DNA of 64,000 nt, taken from assembly GCF_001625215.2 (NCBI RefSeq), contig NC_030385.2, positions 45,347,598-45,411,597 of the forward strand, given 5' to 3'. Positions 3,485 through 61,879 of the stretch are shown piece by piece. The notes under the pieces were generated by a model. It searched no databases, had not been told where the DNA came from, and saw only the letters and a list, made by a program, of their open reading frames with translations. This DNA comes from Daucus carota subsp. sativus. Lineage: Eukaryota > Streptophyta > Magnoliopsida > Apiales > Apiaceae. Each line of letters opens with the position of its first letter. Positions within the stretch are counted from its first letter, which is position 1. Position numbers and translations under genes: made by a program.

Positions 3485-4876
3485 TCATTCACTTCCGTCT
3501 GTTTGAGAATTAAGAATTCTCATGGTATCTTCATCAGCGTCGATTTTATCAGACTTCATCCTTTCTATAATTTCATCGACTCCTTCACCACCTCTTATAT
3601 TTGCCTTAATCAGAGCATGGTACATTTCTCTATTAACAGGAATAACAGACCTCAAAGAGCTGACAAAAGCTTCAACATCTGTGATCTTGCCCTCCTCGCC
3701 AAGCCACTGCAATAAGCTTGAAATCAACACGGGTTTTGGTTTCCAACCTGGACTCTCTTGTGATACTGCCAGAGCTTCCTTCATGCACTCAAAAGCTTTC
3801 TCCAGATTTATCATCTGCAAGTACCCAAAAGAAATGATAGCCCAAGAGTTTGGGATTGTTGTCTTGCCGGTGCCAATCATGTTCTTCAGCAGAGTTTCAG
3901 CTTTCTCTGTCAATCCCTTTGAACATAACCCTATAAAGAGAACATTTGGAACACGAAAATCAAAAGTCCGGCATGATGATTCCCATTCCTTGAGCACTTT
4001 TGTGCATTCCTCGAACTCCCCAAGTCTCACCAACATACCTAGCATTGTTATATAGTCTCTGTTAACTTGTTTCTTGCAAATAACTTTTTGAAGGCCCCAG
4101 AGTCTCATGACCTGATCCTTGCTTCCAAGCTTCGCATAGTGCGAGATCAAATGACTATATCCGATAGCATCTTTATTTATCTTCTCCAGTTTCTTCAAGA
4201 CAACAAGTGCTTTATCCTTATGATCCCCATTGATGTAATGATTGACTGCTGTAGAATACGTGCTCCAGTCCATAGTGATCTGTGGTTGGCTCTCCATTTC
4301 TTCCAAAAGCTTTTCCATACTGTTGAAATCCAATTGATCTCCGCAAGTATTAATGCAGATTCTGTAGCTAAAGTTATTAGGAGGGATGCCATTTTTCTTC
4401 ATCTCTGACAGAAGATCCAGAACTTTCTCAGGTTGATCAGTGCGGGAATATAGACACATGAGATTATTGTAAGCAAGAGGTGAAGTTACGAAACCAATCT
4501 CCTTCATTGTCTGCATAAGCGAAAGAGATTTGTCAACAACGCCTTCTCGAGTATAACAATTAAGTAGAGCACCATATGTCCTTTCATCTTTTTCTTTATC
4601 AGTCAAGTTGCTGAAGTAGTTTTCGGCCGCATCAATTCCCCGAACCGCGCCAATTAGATCCAACTGCACGGCATGATTTCCAGAAGAATCTCGGCAGTAA
4701 TTGTTGGTGTTCACCCACTCAGAAAGCTGCATAAAATAAATTTATACCATATCCAGAAATTAGGATTTTAATCTTGTCAGAAGACATTAGTACAAAGCAT
4801 GATAGCAAAAATTTATACCAACCAGAAAACAAAGGGGAATTTACAAGCATAAAGCAGTTTTTTTGGTACATATAAG

Positions 4877-4910
<34 letters not shown>

Positions 4911-30726: not shown

Positions 30727-33700
30727 TTATGAAAAATAGTTCGGCGTCTTGAGGGCAGGAGACATATGTCTGTGACCTGACTGCCTGAATCCTGTCTGGC
30801 TGTTTCCCGTCTGTGAAGGTGGAATGAATTGTTCACAGTCCTTCACGCCAATTTGTGTAAATGCGTCTACAAGTGGTTTTAAGTAAGCACCCAAAGTTGC
30901 CTTGAAATTCTGTGAACAACTCTTGTCTCCTTCATCGACATCCTGAACACCACCTTTCACAAGACAACCAACTTGAGCTCCATCCATGTAAGCTTTACAT
31001 GCCACCAAAACATCCAGTGCACACTTGAAAAAGTGCCCCACCACAAAATCTTCAAAATGCTGGATCATGAAAAGATATTGAAAAGTTTAAAAGCCAATCC
31101 CAAAATTTACATAAATTGAATTAAAAGCCAAATTTGATGTAAATGATAAGCAATACAGGCCATAGTAACACATTTTAGCCACTCTAGTAGCAATAGTATA
31201 TCTAACCAGGTCATATCAGGTATCTCCTGACAAAAAACCAGAGCAAAGTGAAACATTTACAAAAGCAAAAGCTAAACAACAATTTCATATAAATAATAAA
31301 GCTTTACGTGAAAACATTAGTGTGGCAGCATACTTAAAATTCATCTACGTCTCAAAATTAAAACGTTCACTGCCCCACAATTGTCACAGGATATCAATTA
31401 AAATTAGTGAAGTTGGGTGTTATCATAAAGTATAGCTTGTAGGAAGAAAAATCACAGGATATAACTGTAATATGGTTAAAACTATTTGATACTTCATTTC
31501 TTAACCTAAAAGAACGAGACACTTCTACCTTTGGTTGCTTCTTCAGGGTAAACACCATAGTTTTCAAGGAGAGGATAAAAGTGGACTCGTTATAGTGTTG
31601 TGAGCTCTTTTCCCCATGTGGCGTGCCGCTTAAACGATCATATGCAGGTTCGTTGAAGTATGGTTTCGCATTCAGTATTAGACCTTGTATGGAAACCAGA
31701 ACTTGGAGCATAGTTGACAAATTGGGGATCCACATCTCTTTCTGGCTACCACTCCAGGTGTTGAGAAGACTCAGGCATACTTTTCCATTATTGTACAGAT
31801 TTGGATTGAGTCTGAGACCACGTGAGTGGTAGTACACATGCTGAAAAAGTAATTCTTGGTGATTAGGTCAATGCCAGCATTACATATTACATACTTAGTA
31901 AATTTGCAATAAATACATTCAAGTAATAGATGCATACTGGTGGCACATGAGGATAATTGTCAGGAAATAACACATCAAAGAAGAAAAGGCCATCATGGTA
32001 GGGAGTCCCCTCTGCTCCTATAATTACAGCTCTCAGAAGATCCATTCTTGATTCATAAGCCCTAACAAATATAGTATCTGGACAGAAAAAACACATCAAG
32101 CCATGATTGTAAATTAGATGACCTAAATTATCACTGCAAGCTTTTATCAGATACAGAAAAGATACATGTATCTCAGAATCCAGAAAAACTAACCTGGTAA
32201 ATCCTTCTCCAGAATCTTCCATTCCTCCTGTATTTTCTTTGCCCAGCTCTTTGATGGCTGCAATAAGAAAAAAATGATTTATTTACTTGAGGGGACCTAT
32301 AATAAGAAAAGAACACTCCCAAAAGAATCTTTCAAACTTTTACCTGCTTCGATGAAGATCCATTATGCACGTAATGATGATCAGAAGGATCTTGGACAAC
32401 GTCAAATTTTTTAAATTGATGTAATTTCATGAGAATCTCATCTCTATTGACATGCTTATCTGTAACATTCTGTTGAGATGAATTAGATGGACAATCTAAG
32501 AATGTAGCATCCTTTTGGCTTCCCGAAGATGAACCTAATGGAACCCCCAAATCTGTGGCATTCGTTTGAATTGTAAAGGAATCCTGCAGGAATGGATCAT
32601 ACGCTACTCCATCGAAAGACATATGTTCACTAAGAAATGGATTATAATGGGTGGGATAATTTGGAGGAACCATTACGTACATACTGTTGTCATGTTTATA
32701 CCAGCTGCTGGTGACTGGGGACGCCTCAGAAGCATTAGGAATATAAGGATTCCTAGCTATATGCTTAGTCTTTTTACGAAGAATGTTATCACCGCGAAAG
32801 GCTGCCTTGGCTTCAATATACTGCTGGTTCAAAGAACCTGGTGGTTTATGTGGACCATGACTACTTGCAAGACCAAAGGGTGTAGATTTGTTAACAAAGC
32901 CCCAACCACCACTACTTTGCGCTTTATGCTGGAAGTACTTTGAAGAAGCTATATTTTTCTTGCTCTGAGCATTCTCAATGGTAGACCACGATGAAGACAA
33001 CCCTGCCTTATGGGGGTGACTGACTCCTTGGACTGGGGTTTCCATCCCTAGAGTATTTGTAGTGGGCATCCTTCCCCAAGGGTCTAAAGACCACAGGGAA
33101 TGTGATGCCTCCATTTCTGGAAGGATAACACCGGGGCTGGGCTGTGGTTTTGGATTTGACAGGGCTGGGTTTTTAGTGGCACCGACATTAATTTTATTTT
33201 GAGCAGGACCGGGGAACCAAGAAACAGGAGCCTCAACACCAGGTGGAATGTCAATATTATCAAAATGGGATTGTAAAATTTCATATTCATCCTCATACAT
33301 CTGATTGTCATCGAACACATGTGCACCATCAGGGTACATATCCACATAATCATCATCAAGGAATGAAAGATCACATGCAAAACCTTCTAAATTAACTACA
33401 CTATGTGATCCAGGAGCAGAGTTCTTCTTTGAAGATTGACCCCCGTCCCCATCAATTCCTAAGGAATTGTTCGTTATAGCTCCCTTGAATTGAGGAAGAG
33501 AAAGAACAACTTTAATAATTGCTTCACAACATGGAAAAAAATATAGATCTAATAGTATTAACAATCACCTCAAAGTTCAAAATACACGTTTCATAAACAA
33601 AACAAATTACCTTGCCTTTGTAGTTTGTACCAATCCCTTCAGTAAGCATAACATTGCAACTATTTTCATCCATATCAACATCAATTATTTCTTGATCCAC

Positions 33701-52424: not shown

Positions 52425-52524
52425 CCAGCCCAAACACACAACTGGAAATCATAGCAAACTACAAAGCTCTTACATACATTACATTCTTGCATACCATACC
52501 ACCTCTTCAAGCCTTTTACTAACC

Positions 52525-53168
52525 ATGTCGAACACCTGCGGCAACTGTGACTGCGCTGACAAGACCCAGTGCGTGTAAGTATAAATTTCCTTCTTAATAC
52601 TTTCCTATTTATCATATTTTCGGTTTAGCAGACGTGGCGCATATGTTCAGCGGAAAAAAATGGTGAAACAAAAAATTATCTCAGAATTTTCGCATTCAAC
52701 ATTTTTTTCTCTGATATATGCTAGTATCATTCGTATGTTCCGACATACTAGATTAGAGAGCCAAATATATGTTATCTTATAAGTTTTACGAAAAATTTGA
52801 GATTTTAGCAGAACCAGTAACTGACAGATAAGGAGAGAATTATATTAGTGGTTATCTATGTGCATGTATTGTTTACTAAGCAATATCTAATGGTGAATTT
52901 CGACACATGAATTGCAGGAAGAAGGGAAACAGCTTCGGCCTTGACATCGTTGAGACCGAGAAAATGTATGCTCTTCCTCGACCTTTAAAAATCACGAATC
53001 AAGCTTAGCTCGTCGTACTTTTGTTTGTTATAGATGTATTAGTGAAGTGAACTGAATTGTTATTGCAGCTCCGCTGAGACTATCATGATGGAGGGGTCTG
53101 AGAACGACGGAAAGTGCAAGTGCGGAACCAGCTGCACCTGCACCAACTGCACTTGCGGTGGCCATTAA
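52525..53168 (+). CDS. Metallothionein type 3
   Basis: Three exons, 52,525-52,574, 52,918-52,965 and 53,069-53,168, give 65 aa. Splice junctions split the Val17 and Ile33 codons. The N-terminal domain is MSNTCGNCDCADKTQC (Cys 5, 8, 10, 16). A Cys-free linker includes KKGNSFGLDIVETEK, and the C-terminal domain has six Cys in the CKCGTSCTCTNCTC pattern (49-62). This is the p3/type 3 signature. The protein binds Zn and Cu ions through thiolates in the cytosol and buffers metals and redox stress; type 3 genes are usually strong in leaves and ripening fruit. A diverged paralogue lies at 55,262-56,010. Confidence 0.97.
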
Positions 53169-53267
53169 GACGAGATCTTAACACGGAATTAGTTGGTTGA
53201 TTCTTTTGTTGGCGTTGCTTGCAAGAGGGTGATTAGCTAATTCTGATATCTCTCTATCTATCTATAC

Positions 53268-53299: not shown

Positions 53300-53879
53300 T
53301 GTCGAATTGTGTTTGTTCTGTGCTTGTTTGTTGTAGAGTGTAATATATGGTCAGGACTCGCGACTCCAGTGAGCCTGTGACCATGCTCTGTGCTCTGTAA
53401 CTTGTTATGAATCTATAAATTTGTGTTGTGTTATAAGTTGACTTAGCTTCCCTAGCCGATTCGTTTATGCACCTTCTTCTTGGTAATTTATCAGTTCTAT
53501 ATAGTACATACTACGTAGTGGTCAGTGACGGAATCAGAAATTGAAATGACTTGAAAGATTTAAAAAAAATGTTTTATTCACCGTTTATTTGAATTGAATT
53601 TTTAACGTGTGCCCATCTACGTGCTATAGTGACAAGAATCAGAAATTGAAATTACGGAGGGATCTAATTTTTTATTTTTTTTTTATCGTTTATTTGAGAA
53701 GATTTTCATTTGAACATATTTTGGATATACACTAACAAATATTGTTTAGTTAAGTGGTGTATCTCAAATTTCATAATTAATTATAACACACGAAAATCTA
53801 CTATCAACAGAAATCTTTCAAATAAAAAGTAAATCAAGCAGCTCAATCATAATACTCTCAATATATTTCTAAGAACAAA
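53300..53879. other. Metallothionein 3' flank
   Basis: From 53,390 to about 53,445 it matches the 3' flank of the paralogue (near 56,085-56,130). It contains an imperfect repeat of GAATCAGAAATTGAAAT (about 53,530 and 53,636). No gene is supported. Confidence 0.45.
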
Positions 53880-54500
53880 TTTACATGACATAGTCACACA
53901 AGGTAAATTTATAAAGTCTACTACTCTGATTACACTATATGCAACTGTGCTTTGATTTCGAAATCTACAAAACAAACTATCCCACAATGTGCTCAATCAT
54001 ACCAACAAGGCAATCAGTCTGTCAAAATTGTCATATAAAAAAACAACGAAATAAATCAAGAAGCTCATAACTCACCATCAGTTTGGATGCCAGAGCTAGC
54101 AGGATCGCGGAATCTGATCCCAGAAAACTAATCATACCTCTCCCTCCAAGTGTACAGAAGAAAGAACACCCATGACAGTGCCAAGACAATATCCCCAACC
54201 ACAAGCCTTAACCAGTTGCATCAAGATCCTCGAGTTTCCTATCGAAGTAAATTCTCCACACTGCTGTAACCACATGTAGAAAAACACATCCCTGGCCGGG
54301 GCGGATCTAGGAAGAGACGCGGGGAACACGTGTCTCCCCTAGATATTTTTTTTTACATTTTTTCACCATTCTAAATTTTGCAAAATTATAAAAATGGCCC
54401 GAAAAATTTAAAAATATATAAGTGTTTTCCGAAAATTTGCTTCGTGCCATGTGCTGGATCCGTCCCAGCCCCCTCACAAAAAAGCCTTAAAAAAATCTAC
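53880..54500 (-). pseudogene. 3' fragment of the membrane-protein gene, duplicated
   Basis: Matches 56,670-57,041 plus the first bases after the LTR element (61,885-61,935). The coding part runs from the stop codon at 54,128 to about 54,500. One base is missing in the segment after CTTAACCAGTTGC, shifting the frame. No upstream part of the gene is present, and an element is inserted at 54,297. This is the truncated end of a tandem duplication with the metallothionein gene. Confidence 0.85.
54297..54471. mobile_element. Small MITE-like repeat in the pseudogene fragment
   Basis: It starts CGGGGCGGATCTAGG and ends CTGGATCCGTCCCAGC, imperfect inverted ends. Homology to the membrane gene resumes right after it (AAAAAAGCCTT), so the limits come from the paralogue. 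Flanks CCCTGGC and CCCTCAC may be a poor target duplication. Related sequence at 50,836. Confidence 0.6.
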
Positions 54501-55137
54501 CTAAATATCCTGATCTCTTATCTGTAATCCTAACGAATTTCAATATGAATTAACCTATAATCCGTTTCGAATCCAAACCAAATAAAAAAAATAGATATGT
54601 ATATGAATGTAGACGATTAGATCCAAACCCCATCGTTGACTTAGACTCTCCATAATTGACTTAATTAATGGTAATATATTAACACTTTACAAAACGTGTT
54701 AGCATGTGTCTTTCTATTAAATTGTCATCTTACGTCTTTAAATTGCTTATCAGAAGATAATGTCAAAGATTTTCTTGGATTTGCATTTGATGAGTTCAGT
54801 TGTAAATAGTTACTTCTTTAAATTACTTCTCTTGTTTTGGAGTTTCTGTGATTAATTTAAAAATTAATAGGAATTATATGATCCTATAACTACTTTATAA
54901 TACAGTTTTCATTATTATAATATATTTTGTATCATTGATATATTTTTATTAAATATCTGTTTCTAAATATTTTTCAAGATAAATATACCAGAAAATAATT
55001 GATTCTCATGCACCCCTTCCTGATCGAATATTAAAAATCCATATTTCAAGTATTTGGGTTATATTTTTAATATTTTATTTTTTATTCGGAAAACAACCAA
55101 ACTCGGGCCCCACTCAGCTCTACCACCTTTGTAAATC
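54501..55137. other. Spacer with the second duplication junction
   Basis: AT-rich spacer. The join between the truncated membrane-gene copy and the promoter of the second metallothionein copy must lie here. No gene is supported. Confidence 0.4.
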
Positions 55138-55145
55138 TATAAGTA
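55138..55145 (+). promoter_or_regulatory. TATA-like box of the metallothionein paralogue
   Basis: TATAAGTA lies 124 bases before the ATG. The leader AGCAAACTACAAAGCTC after it is identical to that of the normal metallothionein, so the promoter was duplicated with the gene. The match is one base weaker than TATAAATA of the parent. Confidence 0.6.
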
Positions 55146-55261
55146 GCAGGCTAGTAGCCCAGAAAGGCAGAAACACACAACTACACGAGGAAATATAGCA
55201 AACTACAAAGCTCAAGTTAACTACATCATACCCAACGATTTTCTCCAGTTTTTTACCGACC

Positions 55262-56010
55262 ATGTCGAACATCAGTGTTGACTCTGGCTCTGTTGAGGAG
55301 ACCCAGGACGTGTAAGTTTTTTTTTACTTCCAATTATTATTAGATTTTTAAAGTGTAAGTTTACTTTTACTTGCAGTTACTATTAGATTTGGGATAAGTC
55401 TTAAGCACATAAATTTTGATCTAACGGGTAACGGGTGTTTGGATCATAATTAATGGGATCTGTTAATATGAATAGAAACTTCAAACAAATTTTATCGTAT
55501 GTAACGAGAATCTCATTCTAATACTCTCCATTCCCGTATATATTATTTTCATTCTCATCCGCAATCCAAATACTTCCTAAATTTCGATCTCTTCAAGTTT
55601 TTTAGTTTTTTTCAGTGCACAGAGAGAGGCACATAATTTTGGCCCATGTAACTCGAGTAGTAGTAATTATCGATGTCCATGTCGTGTTTACTAATTTACT
55701 AAGAAATTTCTAGCGGTAAATTTTAATACATGAACTGCAGGAAGAAGGGAAACTCCTATGGCAGTGAAATTGTTGAAACCAGGTATGCTCTTCTTAGTTC
55801 TTTGATGCGTATAAATTACGAATCAAGCTTGTCTCTGTGTTTCGTTTCTTGTTATTGTTTTAATGAAGTGAATTTGATTGTTGCTGCAGCTCTGGAGAGA
55901 CTATTTTGCTGGAAGAGGTGTCCGAGAACACGGAAAATACAAGCGCGGAACAAACTGCACCGGTGCCGACTGCACTTGAAGATGAGGTGACCATTGAGCC
56001 AAGCCTCTGA
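55262..56010 (+). CDS. Cysteine-free, acidic metallothionein-derived protein
   Basis: Three exons, 55,262-55,311, 55,741-55,782 and 55,890-56,010, give 70 aa in one open frame with intact GT/AG sites at the positions of the normal gene. Exon 1 reads MSNISVDSGSVEETQD: all four Cys codons of the parent are changed (to Ser, Ser, Ser, Asp). Exon 2 keeps KKGNSYGSEIVET but lacks two codons. In exon 3 one base is lost after GAGAAC, so the former Cys-rich domain is read in another frame as ENTENTSAEQTAPVPTAL and runs on to a later stop. The product has no Cys, 16 Asp/Glu and only two Lys. It cannot bind metal as a metallothionein. Either a remade gene or a pseudogene that is open by chance. Confidence 0.7.
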
Positions 56011-56071
56011 TATGGAATTAGTTGATTAATTGCATGCGGTGCTTGCATGAGGTTGATTAACTGATTACCTT

Positions 56072-56545
56072 GTGTACCTTCTGTTCCTTGGAACTTGTTA
56101 TGAATGTATGAATTTATATTGCAGAAGATTTAGCTTGTTTCGATCGGTGAATGGATTCTTGGATGAAATTTCGTTGATTATTCAGGGCCCATGGCATAGA
56201 TCGGTGTCCGCTCATAAAATTAGATACAAAATTATTGAACAACATGATATCGCAATTCCTCTGTCCTTTTGTGGGGTTGCTAATGGCCAATCTCAAACTC
56301 ATAAATTAGTTCCTAAGATTGATCTTTGGGCAGAAAATAATTCTACCTGTGGGTTTAAGGGGAGGCTTATCTTGACTGAATTAGAAAAGTCAATGATCAG
56401 ATTCCTTATAAAAGTTCAACTGATTTCGAATAATCAGGCAAAAAAAACAATCATAATTTGGATTTCAATCGATGATCATTTCAATTTGATCATCCTTTCA
56501 ATATTTGATTTTTTCCACGTACTTGTGACCTCCTGGTTTCGCTAG
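56072..56545 (+). other. Unrecognised 157-codon open frame in sequence unique to this copy
   Basis: From about 56,130 to 56,650 the sequence has no counterpart in the left duplication unit. It has a more balanced base composition than its surroundings. An open frame includes GPWHRSVSAHKIRYKIIEQH and LWAENNSTCGFKGRLILTEL. I know no family that matches. The start codon lies in duplicated metallothionein flank, so the frame as given is unlikely to be a native gene. An organelle-DNA insertion is possible but unproven. Confidence 0.3.
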
Positions 56546-57041
56546 CGAGAAGAACCCTCTCATTTCCACGTATTTGAAACCCAAGCCTATGGCAAGCAGG
56601 AAAAGCATTAACAAAGGGAGCTCAGAAGAAGTGACTCCCAATGTTTTTCAAGAACTAATTAAAATTACAGATGACACAAAGTAAATCTGTAAAGTCTACT
56701 ACTCTGATTACACTATATGCAACTGTACTTTGATTTGGAAATCTACAAAACAAACTATCCCACAATGCGCTAAATCATACCAACAAGGCAATCAGTCTGT
56801 CAAAATTGTCATATAACAAACCACGAAAGTAAATCAAGAAGCTCGTAACTCACCATCAGTGTGGATGCCAGAGCTAGCAGGATCGCGGAATCTGATCCCA
56901 GAAAACTAATCATACCTCTCCCTCCAAGTGTAAAGAAGAAAGAACACCCATGACAGTGCCAAGACAATATCCCCAACCACAAGCCTTAACCAATTGCCAC
57001 CAAGATCCTCGAGTTTCCTATCGAAGTAAATTCTCCACACT

Positions 57042-59359
57042 TGTAACATCCCGAATTTTCGGAATATTAAAAACTAATTTCACAACACAAATAATACCAT
57101 TACTTAAATCAAAATCCTCAAATATTATATAAGTCAAAGCAGCGGTCAAACCCAATAATCAAAAGTCATAAATTTAGAGACGCAGCTCCAAAAATCCAAA
57201 ACCAATATCTGATAAACTCATCAAATTATTCTAAATAAACACTAAATCTTTATTCACTAATGCAAATAATCACGAAGCATAAAATCCAAAAGTCCTCGAT
57301 CTAATTCTCAAAATTCTTCCACATGATAGAACCTGAAATATAGAAAATCGGATGAGCTACACAGCTCAGCAAGTAACAATTTGACAAACAATTAATTTCG
57401 AAATCAGTGGGCGTTTTTATAAAACATTGTTCCTCAAAACAATTATAACTTTAAAACACTTGTAAAAAAACAAATCCAACCCATAGTTTATATTTTAAAA
57501 CGAATCAGAATTTAAATGAGAAGCAAAAACAGAAACAAAAATCTTATCAATACCACAGTCTTGCTCTACGGCCACACTTTCCCAGTGACCGGGATCTTAT
57601 TCTTATTCTTTGCCACATTTACCCAGTGACCGGGATCTAAAGTTCAATAATCACGCGCCCTTAGCAGGTATCTAAAGTTGCACACTTGTGCGCCTACTAA
57701 GGGTATCTAAGGCTAGTTCCGGAACTATAGCGTAAATTACGAACGGGTTCGAAACGTAGAGACTGGGTCTTCAAAGATTCTCATGTCTTATATCTTATAA
57801 ATTTTGAAACAAAATTCTTATATCTTATAAATCTCGAAACAAAATTTTCTTATATCTCATGACAAAAATCTGAAATTCACATAGCCAAAATATCTTTCGA
57901 AAATAAAAATAAGTCAAAAAGTACTTACCTCAAAGTCGACACTTAAAATCCGAAATTAATAACACGAACGAAGCCTATACATTTAATTAATAAACAAAAC
58001 ATAATTAACACATAACACTTCTTAAACAATCAAGAGCAAGGCACATAACAAGTCTTAACAAAATACAAACTTTAACAACTAATAACAATTAACATAATTT
58101 CATTTATCGAATAAGATAAATAACATGCATGCTGTTACAAATTTCAATATTAACTAAAGATAACTTCTGAATATGAGAAAATAATCAACTATAGAATTAA
58201 ATTACATTCAACAAGGATTCCAAAATGACCAGATTCATAATAAACGGACAGATAACGAATTAGTTATGAATTTTAGAAGTTCAAGTAACAGAGCAGAATT
58301 TTACTCAGGAGCAGTTTACATTCAAAGCAGATTTTCACAAAGAAAACAAACTGATATCAATTAGACTATAACTAAACACTTATATATCATTCTCAGAGGT
58401 TTCAGAATTGGTAAAGATCATAATTTTATGGCAAATAACGAGGGAGATATGAATTTTTAAACACAGAACAACTCAGCAGAAAAGTATAAACAGCCCTGAA
58501 TCTTTGTAAGTCAGTTTAGACAATTAAATCAATTTAAACAACAAATGGGTATGACTGATAACGAAAGAATATATCTCAAGCTTTCCAGATTGGTATCACG
58601 AGTAAATTTTTGACATACGATCAATTTATAGCGAATTTTTGAACATGGGAAAAAGTTTCGCGACTAAGAACTAAAGGGTAACAAAGAATGTGATTTTAAG
58701 CATAGATACACTGCTAATTTCGAAATAAGTCCTGAGACAAAAGTTGTAGGTATCGAAGAGAGCTTTTCAGAATGTCCAGAATCAACAACATCCGATCAAT
58801 TTTCAATTTACTATGAATTTTACAACCCAACTGATTCACAGAAATTACTATATACAAATTTCAGCATAAACAATTAAGCAAACATGATATATTTACATCA
58901 AATACACATGATAATAAGCAAGAAATCAATATCTCAAGTCAACATATACGTGTTATAATCAAAGAGAAAAAGAGAGCATACCCGTCCACGTAAATTGATG
59001 TCCGACTTATTCAGATTCTAAAGAGGTTCTTATATAGCACATAAAACCTAGTCGTAAATAGGAAGTCCCAAACTTGGGTCAAAATTTTCTACACATCATA
59101 AACCAATTTCCAAATATAAGGTCTTCTAAAAAAGATTTCAATTTCTAAAATAATTCTACACTTCTTTCCATTAATAAAGAATGTTCTCTATTTTATTATT
59201 CAAAATAACTAACACGAAAATAAATTCTAGAAGCTTCCAATTAATGCTAATATCTAATTATATAAATACAAACAATTTAAATCTAAAATCTAACTCATAA
59301 TAATAATACTAATTAAATAGAAATATTTAAATAAATAAATAAAATTACAGGATTTTACA
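57042..59359 (-). repeat. Left LTR (3' LTR of the minus-strand element)
   Basis: 2,318 bp, offset exactly 2,520 bp from the right LTR. It contains two CCCAGTGACCGGGATCT repeats near 57,580 and 57,613. There is no significant coding frame. Confidence 0.95.
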
Positions 59360-59561
59360 TTCTACCCCCCTTAAAAGAATTTGGTCCCCAAATTCTCCAA
59401 ATCTATTCTCCAAAATCCCATCTAAAAGTCAAGACACACAACTAAAAACTCAGTAACCACTAACAAGTCAAACTTGAACCTCAGTACTCGGATCGCACCC
59501 TAAGGAATGAGCTAGTCCCATACCTAACACACTCCGAAGGACAGCCTGCTCGGATACCAAC

Positions 59562-61879
59562 TGTAACATCCCGAATTTTCGGAATATTAAAAACTAATTT
59601 CACAACACAAATAATACCATTACTTAAATCAAAATCCTCAAATATTATATAAGTCAAAGCAGCGGTCAAACCCAATAATCAAAAGTCATAAATTTAGAGA
59701 CGCAGCTCCAAAAATCCAAAACCAATATCTGATAAACTCATCAAATTATTCTAAATAAACACTAAATCTTTATTCACTAATGCAAATAATCACGAAGCAT
59801 AAAATCCAAAAGTCCTCGATCTAATTCTCAAAATTCTTCCACATGATAGAACCTGAAATATAGAAAATCGGATGAGCTACACAGCTCAGCAAGTAACAAT
59901 TTGACAAACAATTAATTTCGAAATCAGTGGGCGTTTTTATAAAACATTGTTCCTCAAAACAATTATAACTTTAAAACACTTGTAAAAAAACAAATCCAAC
60001 CCATAGTTTATATTTTAAAACGAATCAGAATTTAAATGAGAAGCAAAAACAGAAACAAAAATCTTATCAATACCACAGTCTTGCTCTACGGCCACACTTT
60101 CCCAGTGACCGGGATCTTATTCTTATTCTTTGCCACATTTACCCAGTGACCGGGATCTAAAGTTCAATAATCACGCGCCCTTAGCAGGTATCTAAAGTTG
60201 CACACTTGTGCGCCTACTAAGGGTATCTAAGGCTAGTTCCGGAACTATAGCGTAAATTACGAACGGGTTCGAAACGTAGAGACTGGGTCTTCAAAGATTC
60301 TCATGTCTTATATCTTATAAATTTTGAAACAAAATTCTTATATCTTATAAATCTCGAAACAAAATTTTCTTATATCTCATGACAAAAATCTGAAATTCAC
60401 ATAGCCAAAATATCTTTCGAAAATAAAAGTAAGTCAAAAAGTACTTACCTCAAAGTCGACACTTAAAATCCGAAATTAATAACACGAACGAAGCCTATAC
60501 ATTTAATTAATAAACAAAACATAATTAACACATAACACTTCTTAAACAATCAAGAGCAAGGCACATAACAAGTCTTAACAAAATACAAACTTTAACAACT
60601 AATAACAATTAACATAATTTCATTTATCGAATAAGATAAATAACATGCATGCTGTTACAAATTTCAATATTAACTAAAGATAACTTCTGAATATGAGAAA
60701 ATAATCAACTATAGAATTAAATTACATTCAACAAGGATTCCAAAATGACCAGATTCATAATAAACGGACAGATAACGAATTAGTTATGAATTTTAGAAGT
60801 TCAAGTAACAGAGCAGAATTTTACTCAGGAGCAGTTTACATTCAAAGCAGATTTTCACAAAGAAAACAAACTGATATCAATTAGACTATAACTAAACACT
60901 TATATATCATTCTCAGAGGTTTCAGAATTGGTAAAGATCATAATTTTATGGCAAATAACGAGGGAGATATGAATTTTTAAACACAGAACAACTCAGCAGA
61001 AAAGTATAAACAGCCCTGAATCTTTGTAAGTCAGTTTAGACAATTAAATCAATTTAAACAACAAATGGGTATGACTGATAACGAAAGAATATATCTCAAG
61101 CTTTCCAGATTGGTATCACGAGTAAATTTTTGACATACGATCAATTTATAGCGAATTTTTGAACATGGGAAAAAGTTTCGCGACTAAGAACTAAAGGGTA
61201 ACAAAGAATGTGATTTTAAGCATAGATACACTGCTAATTTCGAAATAAGTCCTGAGACAAAAGTTGTAGGTATCGAAGAGAGCTTTTCAGAATGTCCAGA
61301 ATCAACAACATCCGATCAATTTTCAATTTACTATGAATTTTACAACCCAACTGATTCACAGAAATTACTATATACAAATTTCAGCATAAACAATTAAGCA
61401 AACATGATATATTTACATCAAATACACATGATAATAAGCAAGAAATCAATATCTCAAGTCAACATATACGTGTTATAATCAAAGAGAAAAAGAGAGCATA
61501 CCCGTCCACGTAAATTGATGTCCGACTTATTCAGATTCTAAAGAGGTTCTTATATAGCACATAAAACCTAGTCGTAAATAGGAAGTCCCAAACTTGGGTC
61601 AAAATTTTCTACACATCATAAACCAATTTCCAAATATAAGGTCTTCTAAAAAAGATTTCAATTTCTAAAATAATTCTACACTTCTTTCCATTAATAAAGA
61701 ATGTTCTCTATTTTATTATTCAAAATAACTAACACGAAAATAAATTCTAGAAGCTTCCAATTAATGCTAATATCTAATTATATAAATACAAACAATTTAA
61801 ATCTAAAATCTAACTCATAATAATAATACTAATTAAATAGAAATATTTAAATAAATAAATAAAATTACAGGATTTTACA
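59562..61879 (-). repeat. Right LTR (5' LTR of the minus-strand element)
   Basis: 2,318 bp, the same as the left LTR apart from one base that I can see. The primer-binding site lies just left of it. Confidence 0.95.

Follow-up and report, generated by a model that had tools for sequence, protein, structure and literature searches.

A cysteine-free tandem paralogue of a type 3 metallothionein gene in Daucus carota subsp. sativus

The gene at 55262-56010 of the window, i.e., of the whole stretch of 64,000 nucleotides analysed here, is a tandem paralogue (MT-b) of an intact type 3 metallothionein gene (MT-a), and its open frame codes for 70 amino acids with 0 Cys. With moderate confidence, MT-b is regarded here as an old tandem copy of a type 3 metallothionein gene, no longer a metallothionein and now decaying, with a scaffold that is still working or was working until recently. 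The features of the two genes are as follows.

52525-53168, plus strand: MT-a, intact type 3 metallothionein gene with the Cys pattern 4 + 6 and two introns
55136-55261, plus strand: TATA-like box TCTATAAGTA and leader of MT-b, aligned with TCTATAAATA and the leader of MT-a
55262-56010, plus strand: MT-b, tandem paralogue of MT-a, collinear with it and with the same three exons and phases
55262-55311, plus strand: exon 1 of MT-b, MSNISVDSGSVEETQDV, last codon split by intron 1; 35 of 50 bases as in MT-a, no indel
55312-55740, plus strand: intron 1 of MT-b, GTAAGT...TGCAG; significant alignment with MT-a for the last 83 bp only
55741-55782, plus strand: exon 2 of MT-b, KKGNSYGSEIVET, spacer kept; identical to MT-a at 31 of 42 bases and at 10 of 13 residues
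55783-55889, plus strand: intron 2 of MT-b, GTATGC...TGCAG; 76 of 100 aligned bases as in intron 2 of MT-a
55890-56010, plus strand: exon 3 of MT-b, in the old frame until ...SEN and then shifted by a one-base loss
56014-56121, plus strand: 3' region of MT-b, two short blocks (56014-56066 and 56080-56121) matching the MT-a 3' UTR at 53185-53242 and 53387-53428

The exons of MT-a (52525-52574, 52918-52965, and 53069-53168) measure 50, 48, and 100 nt, and its product has 65 amino acids with 10 Cys. The pattern is that of type 3 metallothioneins, with 4 + 6 Cys, CGNCDC...C in the N-terminal part and CKCGTSCTCTNCTC in the C-terminal part (CxCxxxCxCxxCxC). The match to Pfam Metallothio_2 was weak (E = 0.0011, 20.3 bits, under the 23-bit cut-off), as was the best match in the PDB and NCBIfam searches (PDB entry 1m0j at E = 2.8). 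With MT-a as the query, 72 pattern matches were obtained in bacterial/archaeal contigs and 12 in viral contigs, of which 0 were confirmed as relatives; as these collections are not of plants, the result is no sign that relatives of MT-a are rare.

The homology of MT-a and MT-b is beyond doubt. The block 55658-56066 was homologous to MT-a in BLAST (E = 3.1e-51) and the block 55171-55330 matched 52432-52593 (E = 2.6e-14). The MT-b start at 55262 lies 2,737 bases downstream of the MT-a start. An earlier note on this DNA had described MT-b as collinear with the type 3 metallothionein gene 2.7 kb upstream, and the three exons with their shared phases were indeed recovered (55262-55311, 55741-55782, and 55890-56010, i.e., 50, 42, and 121 nt). 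The two introns that mark a type 3 metallothionein gene are thus present in MT-b at the positions and in the phases of MT-a, and the donors GTAAGT and GTATGC as well as both TGCAG acceptors are the same in the two genes. The ten Cys (4 + 6) that also mark this type are all absent from the 70-aa frame. A second GTGTAAGT was observed at 55353 in intron 1 of MT-b, where the start of the intron is duplicated in a short and imperfect form (55310-55395); splicing from it would put a TAA in frame at once.

The two alignable blocks of the pair are identical at 114 of 155 (73.5%) and 294 of 385 (76.4%) positions, and the genes differ by 24% in intron 2 and by 26.5% in the block of leader and exon 1. 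Exon 3 together with the 3' UTR has 147 of 216 aligned bases in common, the upstream DNA 152 of 284, and intron 1 182 of 343. A convincing alignment was not found in intron 1 except at its end, nor in the intergenic DNA except in the two 3' blocks. The transcribed scaffold of MT-b is recognisable and the surrounding DNA is not. The promoter had been said to be kept as well, which holds for the TATA-like box and for parts of the leader (one 19-base stretch is identical in the two leaders) but not further upstream, where no convincing alignment was found. The spacing from box to leader is about 18 bases greater in MT-b than in MT-a.

The alignment bears out that the four N-terminal Cys codons have been replaced, three of them by two-base changes (TGC to AGT, TGT to TCT, TGC to TCT, and TGC to GAC, now coding for S, S, S, and D). 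Compensating indels in exon 1, considered in place of substitutions, were ruled out by the alignment of this exon, which has no gap. Exon 2 is shorter by 6 nt, the two codons given in the earlier note. The alignment places a one-base loss behind codon 45 of MT-a, which corresponds to codon 44 of MT-b, and the remaining 26 codons of MT-b follow the shifted frame; this loss leads, as had been proposed, to a Cys-free acidic product of 70 aa with 16 acidic (13 E and 3 D) and 2 basic residues (2 K and 0 R). Read in the old frame, the six C-terminal Cys codons comprise three with substitutions, one that is now TGA, and two that still read TGC. The statement that all ten Cys were lost is therefore correct for the product, but only four of them were lost by in-frame substitution, and two TGC codons remain out of frame. 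Compared with its parent, MT-b is disabled in the way of a pseudogene, by the one-base deletion and by the loss of all Cys.

The lack of Cys in the new C-terminus follows from MT-a itself, since in the intact gene the shifted frame is open and lacks Cys already. When the homologous deletion was made in MT-a, a frame of 69 aa was obtained that is Cys-free after the shift and ends in ...TESASAEPAAPAPTALAVAIKTRS; it reads ...SENTESASAEPAAPAPTALAVAIKTRS and stops at a TAA aligned with the stop of MT-b. In MT-a this TAA lies out of frame within the 3' UTR, and its partner in MT-b is the TGA at 56008-56010. Among the 192 single-base deletions of MT-a, 76 leave a frame of at least 60 aa. TGC repeats read one base on become GCN, i.e., alanine, and a TGC-rich domain may for this reason be apt to stay open.

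The decay favoured here could have proceeded as follows. The deletion in exon 3, which is itself observed, would have come first and put the six-Cys C-terminal domain out of frame. A complete frame would have been left, as the shifted TGC-rich domain had neither a stop nor a Cys. The N-terminal Cys codons, whose substitutions are seen in the alignment, would then have drifted under relaxed constraint, an order and a cause that we infer. The persistence of the TATA-like box, the leader, the splice sites, and the 3' elements suggests that MT-b is still transcribed and spliced, or was until recently, and its expected output would be an RNA whose protein product has hardly any selected function, if it has one at all. 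If this is correct, MT-b would be a clean case of a TGC-rich gene staying open after a frameshift, and open frames of duplicates could be over-read as signs of selection.

A serious rival reading, possible though somewhat doubtful, is that MT-b codes for a functional acidic protein without Cys. Once the frameshift had removed the C-terminal metal domain, the lone N-terminal Cys cluster would have been useless or harmful and would have been selected away, whereas the spacer and the expression would have been kept; the product would be an acidic, largely disordered peptide capable of weak metal binding through carboxylates at most. The fuller proposal that one base deletion plus selected replacement of Cys made a new expressed, disordered protein of this kind, keeping only the spacer of its family, is tentative and rather doubtful. 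The spacer of type 3 metallothioneins is not known to have a clear role. If a selected Cys-free protein did exist, the spacer would have a function of its own, independent of the metal thiolate clusters, and if the product is real, a family defined by its ligands would have outlived the loss of all of them, with the spacer isolated. No relative of MT-b was found in Pfam, NCBIfam, or PDB up to E = 10, which does not favour a functional protein.

The kept signals argue for a functional protein and against long neutral drift. The genes agree at all 25 bases of the start codon, the two donors (6 bases each), and the two acceptors (5 bases each), as against 44 differences at the 176 other aligned exon bases (p = 0.0017; p = 0.004 when only codon positions 1 and 2 are compared). 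With the strict set of 11 essential signal bases the values are p = 0.07 and, against codon positions 1 and 2, p = 0.12. In neutral simulations, which took MT-a as the ancestor with two fixed deletions, ignored other indels, and scanned distances from 0.15 to 0.5 under two base compositions, a frame of at least 60 aa stayed open with a probability of 0.12-0.57. The open frame of MT-b is by itself not remarkable. Mononucleotide shuffles of MT-b, in contrast, were fully open in 2.3%, a figure that counts against decay. The combination of an open frame, loss of the four N-terminal Cys, and retention of the 11 signal bases had a probability of at most 1.1e-3 at every simulated distance, because short times give few hits on Cys codons and long times lose the signals. 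A probability near 0.001 would carry much weight had the locus been fixed beforehand. The hypothesis, however, was framed with the data in view, the locus was picked as an oddity, and duplicated genes are many, so that this value moves the odds and does not decide the matter. As long neutral drift would hardly preserve the frame, the start, and the splice signals, a plain dead pseudogene is not established either.

Similarly, the changes at Cys codons would fit selected replacement, with limits. In exon 1 the Cys codons have 7 of 12 bases changed as against 8 of 38 in the others (p = 0.020), and over all ten Cys codons the figures are 12 of 30 and 32 of 150 elsewhere (p = 0.030). The C-terminal Cys codons, however, show no significant excess (5 of 18 as against 5 of 32 elsewhere, p = 0.25), and double hits fall on four Cys and five non-Cys codons (p = 0.034). 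These p values are uncorrected and come from a test prompted by the data themselves; the excess is weak and only nominally significant. The view that multiple hits at the Cys codons are hard to explain by drift is weaker than it was put: the excess is nominal in exon 1 and not significant in the C-terminal domain, and the five double-hit non-Cys codons also tell against it. The same note had left the choice between an acidic peptide moulded by selection and a pseudogene open by chance. Both are supported in part: the Cys hits, to which it gave weight, turn out to be weaker ground, and the kept signals now stand beside them.

The substitution rates point in both directions, and all of these selection tests compare two sequences over 43 to 60 codons. 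Pairwise omega (dN/dS) of MT-a and MT-b over the 43 codons before the shift was 0.60 and did not differ from 1 (p = 0.25); it could be the average of one constrained and one unconstrained branch. Fitted alone, exon 1 gave an omega of 1.54 (p = 0.55 against 1) and exon 2 plus the part of exon 3 before the shift (3a) 0.27 (p = 0.033 against 1), with the spacer KKGNSYG..IVET kept, a difference that would suit a functional protein; exon 2 alone gave 0.56 (p = 0.51). However, a fit with two omegas (0.82 for exon 1 and 0.46 for the rest) brought no significant gain over a single one (p = 0.19). In the shifted frame no constraint is visible either: the differences (n = 10) are distributed over codon positions 1, 2, and 3 as 2, 4, and 4, without bias but at low power.

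Acidity was considered as a selected trait and rejected. The net acidity of MT-b is 14, or 11 without three inserted acidic codons, and values of at least 11 arose in 0.04-0.17% of the open neutral runs and values of at least 14 in 0.000 at eight distances. This rarity under drift would favour a functional protein, but when the sites were taken as observed and the target bases drawn at random, an acidity of 6.5 +/- 1.4 was expected before the shift, against 7 observed, and no Cys was left in 74% of the cases. The acidity of MT-b therefore reflects where changes did not fall, not their kind. In a charge-hydropathy comparison, MT-b falls on the disordered side, in line with the reading as an acidic peptide, and MT-a on the other. 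An AlphaFold model of MT-b alone (single-sequence) had a mean pLDDT of 68.2, a pTM of 0.23, and a pLDDT of 87 at residues 31-40, and contained one hairpin (25-29/35-39); it speaks mildly against full disorder and was not used as evidence.

The surroundings of the two genes bear on two further readings. Their main features are the following.

53854-54296, minus strand: second DUF7865 3' end, a copy both truncated and frameshifted, downstream of MT-a
56634-57041, minus strand: 3' end of a DUF7865 (PF25266) gene, interrupted by an LTR element; convergent with MT-b and located downstream of it
57042-61879: LTR element, very young, two 2,318-bp LTRs that are 99.957% identical (one base), 202 bp between them

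The two DUF7865 3' ends are 92.8% identical over 419 columns (53854-54270) and lie at a similar distance behind MT-a and MT-b. With gaps left out, they differ at 6.1% of 244 mostly non-coding and at 2.5% of 121 coding positions. Dating of the metallothionein pair by this flanking duplication was rejected, as the DUF7865 pair has diverged much less than the metallothionein pair; from this mismatch we infer either two events or a later exchange after one duplication of the whole unit. The LTR element is flanked by the target-site duplication ACACT and sits in the minus-strand coding exon of the DUF7865 gene beside MT-b, splitting its reading frame. The truncated copy has an insertion of about 175 bp at about 54297-54475, the GC-rich ends of which resemble, by eye, imperfect inverted repeats; it is perhaps a putative MITE. 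Elsewhere in the window, exons of a ubiquitin-conjugating enzyme (31394-32282, minus strand; Pfam UQ_con, E = 5.7e-10 and 2.1e-7), a PPR protein (3485-4741, minus strand; Pfam PPR_2, E = 1.5e-29), and a run of 31 G at 4879-4909 were observed. The PPR protein, the DUF7865 gene, and the three-exon MT-a together have the look of plant DNA.

MT-b could have been kept as a non-coding transcript or for an effect on its neighbours, e.g., MT-a or the convergent DUF7865 gene, with the frame being incidental. The retained leader, TATA-like box, splice sites, and 3' blocks and the unconstrained shifted frame would agree with this, as would the DUF7865 3' end that begins 0.6 kb downstream of MT-b, but it is unlikely: no Rfam match reached the gathering score within the window, and exon 2 plus 3a, fitted alone, looks constrained as a protein. 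It is most improbable that MT-b died early and that ectopic gene conversion from MT-a patched its splice-site regions and so mimicked constraint, for although the copies are 2.7 kb apart and the DUF7865 ends are alike far beyond the metallothionein copies, which suggests an exchange or a second event, there is no clear tract, identity within the two blocks is unbroken for 19 bases at most (shuffle P = 0.13), and the blocks have similar identities.

Type 3 metallothioneins have 4 + 6 Cys with a C-terminal CxCxxxCxCxxCxC, according to PMC6212650, PMC10142807, and PMC11529040, and those of cassava are described in PMC10142807 as having two introns. Expression of type 3 genes in leaf and ripening fruit is stated in PMC10142807 and PMC6212650. 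MT-a resembles the plant type 3 proteins (cassava MeMT4 and MeMT10, cucumber CsMTL3, and kiwifruit AcMT3a/b) in its 4 + 6 Cys, two introns, and C-terminal motif. In a passage of PMC6212650, these proteins are said to be without CxxC, a remark with which MT-a does not agree, as its N-terminus CGNCDC contains CGNC. MT-b has its exon structure, its spacer, and MSN as its first residues in common with MT-a. It departs from the type 3 metallothioneins in that none of the 10 Cys is present, the C-terminus is shifted, and acidic residues exceed basic ones by 14. Among the matches listed, in which subscription journals were thinly covered, no title or abstract announced a Cys-free plant metallothionein paralogue.

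For a selected Cys-free peptide, two other systems are sound precedents. The euAP3 motif of APETALA3, a new and conserved C-terminal motif, was made by a single-base deletion in a plant duplicate, as stated in PMC1513400, and MT-b is similar in that one missing base led to an open but different C-terminus. According to that source, euAP3 evolves as a coding region across many homologues, whereas MT-b comes from one genome and its shifted part has no such signal. According to PMC3049755, 173 lineage-specific genes of Arabidopsis have an out-of-frame CDS match and no significant peptide match to older Arabidopsis genes; compared with the genes described there, MT-b keeps the whole exon structure and its first 44 codons in the old frame. 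MT-b is also like a tandem-duplicate pseudogene in its frameshift, the loss of all ligand residues, and an omega not different from 1, and is unlike one in that the start codon, all splice signals, and the open frame are intact.
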